From the NCBI GenBank assembly GCA_003663325.1, contig QMZT01000008.1:1-39399 (forward strand): a stretch of 39,399 nt of DNA. Reading direction: 5' to 3'. A model generated the notes under the pieces. It saw only the letters and a list, made by a program, of their open reading frames with translations. It was not told the origin of the DNA and did no database searches. Source of the DNA: Candidatus Aenigmatarchaeota archaeon. Its GTDB lineage: Archaea > Aenigmatarchaeota > Aenigmatarchaeia > QMZP01 > QMZT01. Shown piece by piece: positions 4,479-10,555 of the stretch; position 1 is the first letter of the stretch, and every line of letters begins with the position of its first letter. The position numbers and the translations under genes are program-made.

Positions 4479-5272
4479 TGAAAACTAAAAACCGGAAACA
4501 AATTATAGTTTTGGTTGGGTGTATTTTGGGAGGTATTGTTACAGGCATTATAATAACCGCACACCATCTTGGAAAAACTGAAGGAAGAATTTTTCCTGTA
4601 GCTATTCTCATTATGGTGGTTGGTGCTTCAATTGCAGGCATAATCAAATATTTAGTTGACAAGCGCAAAGGAATAAATACAACTTCCAAACTTACACTCA
4701 CAGTTAGTCTCTGTGTAATAGTTGGTTTGTTGATTGGTGTAGGTATTGGTTATCATTATTTCTTCAAACAAAATACGGTAAGTTACAAAGTTGAAAACTG
4801 CGAGGCAGAATTTCCAAAATTTAACGGACCTTTGGTAAGCTATGATGAGCAAAATAAAACTTTGAGTGCTGAAGTTTGGGTTAATTGCTGCGGAGTTGAG
4901 GTAAAGGTTGAGAAGGAAGGCTCAACTTATAAAATTTTAGAAAGGCAAGTTGGAGAACTTTGCAGATGCATGTGCAAAAGAAAGGTAACAATTTTTAATG
5001 TTTCTGAAGATGCAGAGGTCGTGTTTTCGGATAAGGATGGTAACTATTATACTTTATCTCCGAACTTAAAATTCTGCGGTTGGTCAACTTATGGGAAATG
5101 CGATAGCGATGAGGATTGTTTGGCAAGCGGTTGCTCAAAGCAGGTTTGTCAATCGAAGTTTGAAGGATCCATCATAACTACATGCGAATGGTTCGATTGT
5201 TACAATGCAAGGAAGTTTAATGTTGCCTGCAAGTGCGTTGAAGGAAGATGTCAATGGACAAGAGAACAATAA
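4475..5272 (+). CDS. Membrane-anchored protein with eight-cysteine-cluster C-terminal domain
   Basis: Two hydrophobic N-terminal segments; C-terminus CGWSTYGKCDSDEDCLASGCSKQVCQS...TTCEWFDCYNARKFNVACKCVEGRCQW. Confidence 0.75.
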   Translation: MMKTKNRKQIIVLVGCILGGIVTGIIITAHHLGKTEGRIFPVAILIMVVGASIAGIIKYLVDKRKGINTTSKLTLTVSLCVIVGLLIGVGIGYHYFFKQNTVSYKVENCEAEFPKFNGPLVSYDEQNKTLSAEVWVNCCGVEVKVEKEGSTYKILERQVGELCRCMCKRKVTIFNVSEDAEVVFSDKDGNYYTLSPNLKFCGWSTYGKCDSDEDCLASGCSKQVCQSKFEGSIITTCEWFDCYNARKFNVACKCVEGRCQWTREQ

Positions 5273-5920: not shown

Positions 5921-5992
5921 ATTAGGTAAAAACCGAATATAATCAAAAGTATTTTAAAGAATTTTAAATTAATTGATTTATGGGAAGATGAA
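5858..5992. repeat. Direct repeat copy B, with degraded coding part
   Basis: As for copy A; also includes the promoter region upstream of the 520-aa MBL fusion gene. Confidence 0.9.
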
Positions 5993-7535
5993 AAACAGAA
6001 AATTACTTTTTGGGTTTTTAGCAATTATTATGTTAGCTACTATATGTGGTGTCTGGTTTTCATTAGACAAGATTACCCGATGTGCTCTTATTTACGGAAA
6101 GAATATCTGCAATTTCTACGCTATGATGGATATTGCTAACAATAATCCTTCAATCTCAGATTTTGATAAAATGATGGATTTATGCATAGACATGAGTGAT
6201 GTCCCTAAAAAAGATGGTTGTTTTGAATATGTCGCACAAACCATTGCTCCAATAGATATAAATAAAGCAAAAGAAGCCTGTGATGAAATTAAAGGATTTG
6301 ATGGTGTAAAGAGTAGAGAAATTTGCTACAACAGAATATTACAAGCAATAGTTGAAAAGATCGTGTTTTACGAAAATGGTAGACAAGAAATTATAAACCT
6401 AAAATCCGAAAAAGGAAAAGGAATAGCGAGTTTACTTACTCGCAAACTTCATGAACTAAATCTACAAGCAACATGTGTTTTTAGCGAAGAAGATATTCGG
6501 GAAATAAAGCAAAAAGACAGAGTTATAGAGTTAATTTTCAAGAAACCCATAGATATTACAATTTCACAATGGATTGAGCCAGAAGAAAGATACCATATTC
6601 CGACAGATGAAAAGGGTTACAGAATTTTGGAGAATGTTAAAACTGCCATATTTATTTTGGAGGATAATCAAGAAAGAGGATTGGAAGCACATATTTTAAT
6701 TGGTCATGGAGTTGAAGGAAGAACAGGTTACAGTTGCTGGGCAATAAATATCAAAAAAGAAGGAAAACCAGAATTAGATAAAAGTTGGATTGACGGGATA
6801 AACAGGCTAATAAAAACTGAATCTGAAGAGGAAAAACCTGAAATAACTTTAATCTCTGTCTATGACAACTATCAAGTAAATTCAGAACTTAAAACAGCCT
6901 GGGGCTTTGCTACTATAATAAAAACTCCTAAGGAGTTGATACTTTTTGATACTGGAGGAGACTCAAAAATTTTGCTTTCAAATATGAAAAAATTAGGTAT
7001 CAACCTCACTTCAATCAAGAAGGTAGTTATTTCTCATATTCATAATGACCATTTAGGAGGATTGGAAGGTTTTTTAGAGAGAAACAGTAATGTGACTGTC
7101 TTTATTCCAAGTTCATTTCCTCAATCTATTAAAAATATGATAGTCGAAAATGGAGCAAAATTCGTAGAGATTTCAGCTCCAAGAAAAATTTCTGATTTTA
7201 TTTACATAACTGGAGAACTTTATGGACCTCCGAAAGAGCAATCTCTGATTATTGATTCAAAAAAGGGATTAGTAATTATTACAGGCTGTGCTCATCCCGG
7301 AATTGTGAATATTGTAAAGAAAGCCAAAGAATTGATGAAAAGAGATAAAGTATATTTAGTTTTGGGAGGATTTCACCATCCTCCTCTATCTTGCGTTAAA
7401 GAACTTAAAGAATTGGGAGTAGAGAAGGTTGCACCATCTCATTGCACAGGTGATTTAGTAAGAGAGGCTTTCAGAAAGGAATATAAGGGAAATTTTATTG
7501 AGTATGGAGTGGGAAAAATTATTGAAATTAAGTAA
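5988..7535 (+). CDS. Membrane-anchored fusion protein: Cys-containing helical-repeat-like region, unknown domain, C-terminal MBL-fold hydrolase
   Basis: N-terminal TM LLFGFLAIIMLATICGVWF; C-terminal FDTGGDSKILLSNMKKL, SHIHNDHLGGLEGF, GCAHPGIVNI, GGFHHPPLSCVKELKELGVEKVAPSHCTG. Start taken at ATG 5988 rather than the TTG at 5973. Confidence 0.8.
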   Translation: MKNRKLLFGFLAIIMLATICGVWFSLDKITRCALIYGKNICNFYAMMDIANNNPSISDFDKMMDLCIDMSDVPKKDGCFEYVAQTIAPIDINKAKEACDEIKGFDGVKSREICYNRILQAIVEKIVFYENGRQEIINLKSEKGKGIASLLTRKLHELNLQATCVFSEEDIREIKQKDRVIELIFKKPIDITISQWIEPEERYHIPTDEKGYRILENVKTAIFILEDNQERGLEAHILIGHGVEGRTGYSCWAINIKKEGKPELDKSWIDGINRLIKTESEEEKPEITLISVYDNYQVNSELKTAWGFATIIKTPKELILFDTGGDSKILLSNMKKLGINLTSIKKVVISHIHNDHLGGLEGFLERNSNVTVFIPSSFPQSIKNMIVENGAKFVEISAPRKISDFIYITGELYGPPKEQSLIIDSKKGLVIITGCAHPGIVNIVKKAKELMKRDKVYLVLGGFHHPPLSCVKELKELGVEKVAPSHCTGDLVREAFRKEYKGNFIEYGVGKIIEIK

Positions 7536-7555: not shown

Positions 7556-7659
7556 ACTTCGCCTAACGTATCAGATTAACCAAAGTCCCGAAGGGATTTG
7601 GGTGAGCGAGGGTTTAAGCGTAAGACCCGAGCAAAGCTTAATCTCCTGTTGCGCGAAGT
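7556..7659. repeat. Compact imperfect inverted-repeat element (attC-like or MITE-like)
   Basis: ACTTCGCCTAACGTATCAGATTAA ... TTAATCTCCTGTTGCGCGAAGT are imperfect inverted arms. Internal hairpins are CCAAAgTCCC-GAA-GGGATTTGG and GGGTTT...AAGACCC. Confidence 0.65.
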
Positions 7660-7704
7660 TTCGCCGAGCCGAAAATTTAGAGCTTCTACCCGTCGCAACA
7701 CACC

Positions 7705-7729
7705 ATTTCCCGCAATGTTTTCGGGAAAT
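7705..7729. terminator. Hairpin ATTTCCCG/CGGGAAAT between convergent genes
   Basis: Perfect 8-bp stem, 9-nt loop. T-rich tract at 7739-7752, then another AATTTCCCG (7753-7761) that can pair alternatively with CGGGAAATT (7722-7730). Confidence 0.5.
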
Positions 7730-7768
7730 TTTGCGAAGCTTTTTTAATTTTTAATTTCCCGATAATTT

Positions 7769-10555
7769 TTAAGTTTCGTATCTCTCTATCTCCCAATACC
7801 TCTTCGTCCTTACATACTCTCGCTCTGCTCGCATTATTTCCATTATTAGTTCATCTCCGCTCTTCATCTTTGCAAGTATGCGCTTTGCTGTAGCCACGCC
7901 AACCCCCCTACCAGCCATAGCTATTACCGCTTGCTTACCATAGGTTATCGTTAGGGTTGCAGACTCCAAAAGCTCGGTAAGCATTCTGTCTTCTTCTTTG
8001 TTTAGCTTTTTACCCCTGAGGTATTTCTCCAGCACCTTTACCTTCTCCTCCTCCCACGGCTTAACAATACCTATAAGTTTTGCCCCGCATTTTGGACACT
8101 TTATATCTTGCGGAACATCTCTTGCTATAACATGCTCTATATACCTTGCACAGTTAAAGCACACAAGCATTAGTTTTGTATCCATGATTCTTTTTTTAAA
8201 TACATCAAAGATTTCACTTTCCATTGAGGGTGTAGTAACAAGTTCAAACCTAGCCTCTATACCAATGGTTGCTAGGGGTGATAAACCTTTTTTAACAAAA
8301 ATTCCCATTTGCCCACATCTTATCTTTTTTATAATCTCCATCGCACCCTCAACATCCATCTTTTCTGTAAATATCTCATTCAATGTTTCCTTAAATGGTA
8401 TGTCGCTCTGGTAAACATCAACCAGCTTCCTTATATAACCTTTCCCATAACTTGCATCCCTTTTTATTATTCCCATACGTTTTGCTACATGTGTAAAACG
8501 CCACATGAAAAGCTCTGAGTTCTTCATGTGCATCGCAAGCAACTGCTTTACTATGCTTAAATCAACACTTTTTAATACCTCTGCTACCATCTCCTCATTC
8601 CCCCTCTGCAGGCGCAAAATAATTCTGTAAGGGTCACTTTCCATTACCACTGAGCCAATCTTTGGTGTTAAAAGGAATGCTATGATCTTGCCAAGTGCCT
8701 CATTAACCATACTCCCATTGCAGGAATGTATAACCACATAATCCCCTTCCCCTTCAATATAAACAGCTTGCTCATCTGGAATAAAGCTATACTTTACCTG
8801 CCTTTTCATGATATCCAGCATACTATTAAAGGCGTGAATGTCTATGCTGTAATGCTCTTTCATATACCTGTACATATCTTCTTTATCTTTTTCCTCAGCA
8901 ATCCATTTCCCAAGTAAGCGTCTTATTTTTCCCACCTCCATGGCAACATTAGCATGGACAGGTATAAGTTCGCCAATCCATGCAGGTATGCTCGCCTCCC
9001 TGCCAGTATATGGCTCTACCATAACGCTTTGCTCTCTAACATCCACCACCCTCCAAGCCTGTCCTTTAACTATAAACCTGGCGTTGGGAAGGCAATATAT
9101 ATTCACAAATTCCTCATCCAGTGTTGCAACTTCTTTGCCGCTTACTATATCCACAACCTTGTATGTTTTTGTATCTGGTATGGTGGAAAGGTTTTCGTAG
9201 TAGTATTTCCATAACCCACGCCTTGCTCTTATCCACGCTTCCTTTCCTTCCTCAAACATGCTTATAAGCCTTACCTCTCTCATAAAGCTGCATACATCCA
9301 TAACCTCTTCAATTTTTATATCGTTGTAAGGATAGGCATGCTTAACTACATCCCACACCTTCCTAACGCTTAGCTTGGAATACTCCATAAGCAAGCCAGC
9401 TATTTGGTGCATAAGCACGTCCATAGCCTTTTTATATATTATTGTTGGCTCTAACATGTTTTTCTTCGCAAGCCCTGCTATTGCAGCTGATTCAAAACAA
9501 TCATCGCCATGCTTTGTTATTATTACGCCTTTTGAAACCATCTCCACTTTGTGACCACTCCTTCCACTTCTCTGCAAAAATTTGGATACTTGGCGAGGGG
9601 AGAAGTATTGGATAACGAGATCAACGCTTCCAATATCTATACCCAATTCTAAGCTGGAAGTACATACTAACGCTTTAATTTTGCCCTCTTTAAAAAGCCT
9701 CTCCCCTGCCACCCTTACATCCCTTGATAAAGAGGAATGGTGCGTTTCTATAGGGAATTGGCTTAGCGTTCTTAAGCGCGCAGACAAAAACTCCGCCTGC
9801 TCTCTTGTATTTGTAAAAATCAGCACGGAGTTATGCCTAGCTACAAGTCTTTCGATAATCTCTACATCACTCTTACCATCGCTGGTAGAAATAACACTAA
9901 CACATACCCTTTTCTTTTCGGTAACATCCACAATTACACAATCTTTATTGGGAGAAATAAATTTTGCTACCTCTTGCTTATCCCTTATAGTCGCTGAAAT
10001 CCCTATAATCTGAAAATCCCCAGCAAGCATCTTAAGCCTTTCTAAGCCAATAGCCAACTGAGCACCTCTCTTATTGCCAACAAGCTCATGAACTTCATCA
10101 ATTATTACCCATTTAACGTTTGCTAAATGTTTCCTCAATTGCTTACCCACAAGCATTGCTTGCAACGTTTCTGGCGTGATAATAAACATATCTGCAGGGT
10201 TTGCAGCTTGCATGCCTCTCTCATACCTACCCGTATCGCCATGCCTTACACTTACCTCAAACCCCAGGCGCTCTGACCACCATAATATGCGGGAAAGCAT
10301 ATCTCTATTAAGGCTTCTTAATGGTGTTATGTAAAGAATACTTATTGGTTTCAATCTTTCTCTTTCCCTTAAAAATCTGTCAAATACTGGCAATAGCACA
10401 GCCTCTGTCTTACCAACACCTGTTGGCGCAATGAGAAGTGTGTTGCGATTGCTAACTATATGCTCAAAACTTTCTATTTGTGCGAGGGTAGGCTTTTTGA
10501 ACCCCCTCTCCTTCAACGCATTCCTTATTTCCCTTGAAAGGTTTCCCCATACCAT
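7769..10555 (-). CDS. lhr: Lhr-like large superfamily 2 DNA/RNA helicase
   Basis: LIAPTGVGKTEAVLLP, IDEVHELVGNKRGAQLAIGLERL, ISATI, CTSSLELGIDIGSVDLVIQ, QRSGRSGHK; C-terminal CFNC...CPKC. Confidence 0.92.
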   Translation of the reverse strand: MVWGNLSREIRNALKERGFKKPTLAQIESFEHIVSNRNTLLIAPTGVGKTEAVLLPVFDRFLRERERLKPISILYITPLRSLNRDMLSRILWWSERLGFEVSVRHGDTGRYERGMQAANPADMFIITPETLQAMLVGKQLRKHLANVKWVIIDEVHELVGNKRGAQLAIGLERLKMLAGDFQIIGISATIRDKQEVAKFISPNKDCVIVDVTEKKRVCVSVISTSDGKSDVEIIERLVARHNSVLIFTNTREQAEFLSARLRTLSQFPIETHHSSLSRDVRVAGERLFKEGKIKALVCTSSLELGIDIGSVDLVIQYFSPRQVSKFLQRSGRSGHKVEMVSKGVIITKHGDDCFESAAIAGLAKKNMLEPTIIYKKAMDVLMHQIAGLLMEYSKLSVRKVWDVVKHAYPYNDIKIEEVMDVCSFMREVRLISMFEEGKEAWIRARRGLWKYYYENLSTIPDTKTYKVVDIVSGKEVATLDEEFVNIYCLPNARFIVKGQAWRVVDVREQSVMVEPYTGREASIPAWIGELIPVHANVAMEVGKIRRLLGKWIAEEKDKEDMYRYMKEHYSIDIHAFNSMLDIMKRQVKYSFIPDEQAVYIEGEGDYVVIHSCNGSMVNEALGKIIAFLLTPKIGSVVMESDPYRIILRLQRGNEEMVAEVLKSVDLSIVKQLLAMHMKNSELFMWRFTHVAKRMGIIKRDASYGKGYIRKLVDVYQSDIPFKETLNEIFTEKMDVEGAMEIIKKIRCGQMGIFVKKGLSPLATIGIEARFELVTTPSMESEIFDVFKKRIMDTKLMLVCFNCARYIEHVIARDVPQDIKCPKCGAKLIGIVKPWEEEKVKVLEKYLRGKKLNKEEDRMLTELLESATLTITYGKQAVIAMAGRGVGVATAKRILAKMKSGDELIMEIMRAEREYVRTKRYWEIERYET

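Follow-up and report, generated by a model that had tools for sequence, protein, structure and literature searches.

The element at 7556–7659

The DNA analysed, called the window below, is a stretch of 39,399 nucleotides from a Candidatus Aenigmatarchaeota archaeon. In the window, an ORF for an MBL fusion protein occupies 5973–7535, a non-coding element of about 100 nt follows at 7556–7659, and an Lhr-type helicase gene ends at 7769. An earlier note had described the element as an integron attC-like site placed after the MBL gene as in a cassette, with a MITE or a structured RNA as the alternatives.

On the plus strand, the left half of the element consists of GCCTAAC (7561–7567), GTATC (7568–7572) and AGATTAA (7573–7579), and the right half of TTAATCT (7638–7644), CCT (7645–7647) and GTTGCGC (7648–7654). 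These letters and positions, together with two inner hairpins, had been given in the earlier note and were all present as stated. The arms are longer than it had given, reading ACTTCGCCTAAC and GTTGCGCGAAGT, which are 83% complementary over 12 nt. The R''/R' boxes that it had assigned are real, but its canonical strand was wrong, as the crossover box GTTAGGC reads on the minus strand. The parts of the element are as follows.

7556–7659, minus (canonical attC strand): putative attC-type site, whole; 31.0 bits, E = 5.1e-5 with the covariance model R2 in a search within the window, and matched by a site in genome G132
7561–7567, minus: canonical R' (crossover) box, GTTAGGC on the minus strand, a perfect GTTRRRY; from the sequence
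7568–7572: spacer of 5 nt beside the L' box half
7573–7579, minus: L' box half, AGATTAA on the plus strand, pairing with 7638–7644; from the sequence, with covariation of the L stem in the family
7582–7599, plus: inner hairpin 1, AAAGTCCC-GAA-GGGATTT; from folding, with covariation in helix 3
7597–7607, plus: joining motif TTTGGGTGAGC, frequent in the family
7608–7632, plus: inner hairpin 2 (GGGT..ACCC), variable across the family; from folding
7638–7644, minus: L'' box half, TTAATCT on the plus strand; from the sequence and family covariation
7648–7654, minus: canonical R'' box, GCGCAAC on the minus strand (GTTGCGC on the plus strand); the stretch GCTTAATCTCCTGTTGCGCGAAGTTTCGCCGAGC is identical in G132

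The element has inverted R''/R' and L''/L' boxes around a structured centre, and, relative to the consensus GTTRRRY/RYYYAAC, its R' box is perfect and its R'' box has one mismatch. The folding energy compared to shuffled sequence was mildly unusual (RNA z −1.7; DNA z −2.1), so that the fold alone is unconvincing. The Rfam search of the window gave no family at the element and a tRNA elsewhere as its sole match, and BLAST against the 735-kb genome itself, which had been proposed as a check for multiple copies, found one copy. Taken by itself, the window would make a weak case. The two-arm layout alone is likewise weak evidence, since a naive search of related loci for attC-like arm pairs found 17 against 13.8 expected, which is not above chance.

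Homologous sites in related genomes

The family of sites was first traced through a weak match in relatives and through the inspection of loci near tyrosine recombinases; a search with the pattern GGATTTGGGTGAGCGAG at three mismatches returned mainly noise. The covariance model R1, built from five sites aligned with hand-trimmed ends, gave 77 matches, spread over 26 of the 61 genomes searched. The model R2, whose seed comprised 51 matches with the window left out, finds sites in 54 of the 156 genomes of the class. Both models read the plus strand of the window element.

In a site of the family, nnnTAAC and ATAT precede an 11-bp stem; within the stem lie two hairpins, the first being GAAGT..ATTTGGGTG, and after its return come T and GTTA. 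The R' box fits GTTRRRY in 23 of 86 sites and the R'' box fits RYYYAAC in 18 of 91, while GTTR is present in 73 of 86. Covariation across the 51 sites is strong, with 248 double-change cells compared to 77 after shuffling, where the pair counts are inflated by the fitting of the alignment (A6) to the structure.

The window copy is divergent, scoring 31 bits compared to 55–95 for typical sites of the family. Its closest homologue is G132:C40:5224-5323, with 87% identity over about 100 nt (E = 7.8e-28), which is the attI-proximal attC of an array with at least seven sites above threshold and an integrase fragment. The far end of this attI-proximal cassette also matches the window (E = 3.2e-5). 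By homology, the window element is far beyond chance. Among the other genomes, G018 belongs to the same order as that of the window. Sites of the same family were also seen upstream of integrases at L135, L123 and L124, on contigs labelled Archaeoglobaceae, Woesearchaeota and Nanoarchaeia.

Cassette arrays and the adjacent integrase

In relatives, of 55 pairs of adjacent sites separated by less than 6 kb, 54 are oriented alike and one is opposed (54:1); the median spacing is 1157 nt, usually with one ORF between the sites. The ORFs in the arrays run 65:29 against the model strand, which indicates that the models read the complement of the canonical attC strand and that the ORFs lie in the canonical direction; their stop codons mostly fall 45–80 nt before the following attC. 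The attI-like site and the integrase lie 3' of the site on the plus (model) strand, and the integrase was on the predicted side and strand in all 16 loci having one, a count from which G009 and G031, early loci with an oppositely oriented XerA gene near the site, are excluded.

For the 9-nt box GTTNNNNNN, the exact reverse complement occurs within 4 kb downstream in 30 of 52 sites, compared to a mean of 1.55 and a maximum of 5 in 200 label swaps. The partner belongs to the next site or lies where the array ends, and in G053 the successive boxes GTTATATTC, GTTCATTTC, GTTAGTTGC and GTTATGCTC pair one after another. These complementary cassette ends are the decisive signature of the arrays as putative integrons. 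The arrays end at a recurrent attI-like junction, AAC-A(A/C)C-(T/A)ATT(T/A)..CG.A, often extended as an inverted repeat, which is about 100 nt before the start of a divergent tyrosine recombinase gene; at G013:C6, G005:C11 and G053:C11, the junction was found without an integrase at the array end. Complementary cassette ends, a unidirectional array, an attI-like site and an adjacent integrase were all found in relatives, where the array genomes include some fragmented MAGs.

Defence genes are present in several cassettes, namely type IIG restriction-modification, GmrSD-like, AbiEii and Dsr1. At L117:5823-9533, a Dsr1-like defence gene of 1236 aa is situated between an attC and an integrase in MAG HyVt-387, which is labelled Thermoplasmatales, so that this locus may have been transferred or mis-binned. 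The array integrases are often near contig ends (L057, L058, L060, L061 and other loci), as expected if arrays break the assembly.

The arrangement in arrays bears on the two alternatives raised earlier, both of which are disfavoured. A non-autonomous MITE mobilised by a transposase would have the terminal inverted arms, the length and the non-coding character of the element; however, the element is single-copy, and near-identical dispersed copies with target-site duplications were found neither in its own genome nor in the relatives searched. The family members are alike in structure and not in sequence, they alternate with genes in one direction, and their ends pair with the next unit across about 1 kb instead of with target duplications, which makes this explanation extremely improbable. 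A riboswitch, a leader or a terminator-like RNA is also very improbable, although the helices are conserved and covarying, because no Rfam family corresponds to them and an RNA role does not predict the pairing of R boxes between cassettes, the attI junctions and the adjacency of integrases.

The array-adjacent integrases are about 257–312 aa long where complete and keep the tyrosine recombinase core. Their best profile is recomb_XerA_Arch (NF040815), with two of the five tested passing the cut-off, and a PDB search places XerA matches ahead of IntI4. In the IntI4 alignment, 14 residues of the query (175–188) face 59 residues of IntI4 (179–237) at the IntI-specific insert, and TIGR02249 matches the array integrases in two split pieces below the cut-off. 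The AlphaFold model, drawn on solely for this point, has no extra helix at the I2 position; its pTM of 0.62 makes the domain placement uncertain. In the tree, the array integrases divide into two or more XerA-like groups, and the position of IntI1 is unsure because of its long branch. The array integrase is predicted from its sequence to be of XerA type, without the IntI-specific I2 insert.

The search for an IntI-type integrase that the earlier note had suggested found none over the cut-off in 61 genomes, the integrase of the family being XerA-type. This result bears on a further explanation, in which the element would be a canonical bacterial-type attC of an IntI integron acquired by recent bacterial transfer or contamination. 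Ghaly et al. 2022 (PMC9668308) report archaeal attCs, some of which are nearly identical to bacterial ones. However, besides the lack of IntI, the sites nearest to the element come from archaea of the same class, including on a 918-kb contig, and the low fit of the R boxes to their consensus also argues against this origin, which we consider improbable.

The archaeal integrons described in that study include attCs in Aenigmatarchaeota and Nanoarchaeota, so that arrays in Aenigmatarchaeota are not new as such, and some sites of the present family may be among those reported there. The two sets are alike in phylum, in the arrays of ORFs and attCs in one direction, in the folded sites and in the many clusters without an integrase. 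Their integrases are different: the archaeal IntIs of Ghaly 2022 carry the IntI-specific domain, with three of six left out of the tree because they were short or covered this domain partially, whereas the array-adjacent integrase here is of XerA type without this domain. The novelty is this predicted XerA-type integrase without the I2 insert of IntI; a literature search reaching few subscription papers found no paper on XerA-type integrons.

Compared to bacterial integrons (IntI1, VchIntIA/IntI4), the layout of integrase, attI and array, the divergent integrase, the order of gene then attC, the GTT crossover box, the R and L boxes and the complementary cassette ends are shared. The differences are the shorter segment facing the IntI4 insert, R boxes that are variable beyond GTTR, spacers of 4 and 1 nt, the 11-bp L stem and the conserved GAAG..TTTGGGTGAGC. 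With the chromosome dimer resolution system of archaeal XerA/dif, the family shares an integrase in or near recomb_XerA_Arch, with XerA as the best PDB match, and some attI-like sites that are near-palindromic. In contrast to that system, the integrase adjoins cassette arrays, and the attC hairpins are not dif sites.

The gain of the I2 helix is held to have moved integron integrases from double-strand to single-strand recombination (Escudero 2020, PMC7790495), which is why the present variant is informative. Arrays beside an integrase without I2 make this step directly testable, and they would give DPANN archaea a platform for cassette capture.

The attC-type site in the window

Two further features, and possibly a third, were found in the window.

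7648–7699, strand not assigned: gene-less cassette remnant, beginning GTTGCGCGAAG and ending CCCGTCGCAAC; the ends match G132:C40:5224-5323 and 5126-5161
7697–7735, minus: attI-like core, containing TTTCCCGCAATGTTTTCGGGAAA at 7706–7728; also present where arrays end in G054 and G013
805–898, minus (model strand): weak candidate for a second site, degraded; R2 26.9 bits, E = 5e-4

Both ends of the remnant match the attI-proximal cassette of G132. The 23-mer of the attI-like core is exact in the window, compared to 0 expected, and the array end in G054 that bears it adjoins an integrase. On the canonical (minus) strand, the window reads attI-like core (7735–7697), cassette remnant (7699–7648) and attC (7659–7556). 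No integrase gene is adjacent to these features. The same genome contains, on another contig, an 86%-identical copy of the family recombinase (G000:C18:14338-14880) that is truncated where the contig ends. A second, short tyrosine recombinase of 185 aa, with 40% identity, was seen in this genome at L058:6381-6881.

The window site stands alone. The pairing between its two R boxes is imperfect, no intact R-box partner was found on either side of it, and the window holds one clear site and a weak one 6.7 kb away instead of a cluster, defined as at least two sites in 4 kb. The MBL gene is not supported as its cassette, because it runs opposite to the usual direction of cassettes and no GTTAGGCGA partner was found upstream; a homologue search for this gene as a test of cassette origin gave patchy matches.

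The element is very probably an attC-type site of an archaeal integron, whose neighbours are the gene-less cassette remnant and the attI-like site, with the integrase gene not, or no longer, adjacent. The reading as an attC was right in kind, the element being homologous to the sites of cassette arrays, and is corrected as to the strand, the MBL gene as its cassette, the extension of the element into the remnant and the attI-like core (to 7735), and the type of integrase. In relatives, the sequences show cassettes with GTTNNNNNN at the start and its 9-nt reverse complement at the end. In the proposed mechanism, a XerA-type recombinase without I2 would use attC as a folded single strand and join cassettes at the GTT box, and for arrays such as that of the window it would work in trans. 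The sites of the family are presumably active in recombination, and the copy in the window is probably either a relic or a substrate used now and then in trans. On balance, we lean towards the view that Aenigmatarchaeota and some Woesearchaeota carry integrons run by XerA-type recombinases without the I2 helix; folded-attC capture would then have arisen, or would persist, without the domain held to be necessary for single-strand recombination, and the window would hold an orphan attC–attI pair.

The weak match at 805–898 is located directly after a DUF3160 gene and has a decayed R box; it is perhaps another attC relic. The MBL fusion ORF has a composite make-up. Its residues 195–282 share 89% identity with a stand-alone stretch in G052 and its residues 9–125 share 65% identity with a piece in G019; separate homologues exist for the C-terminal MBL domain.
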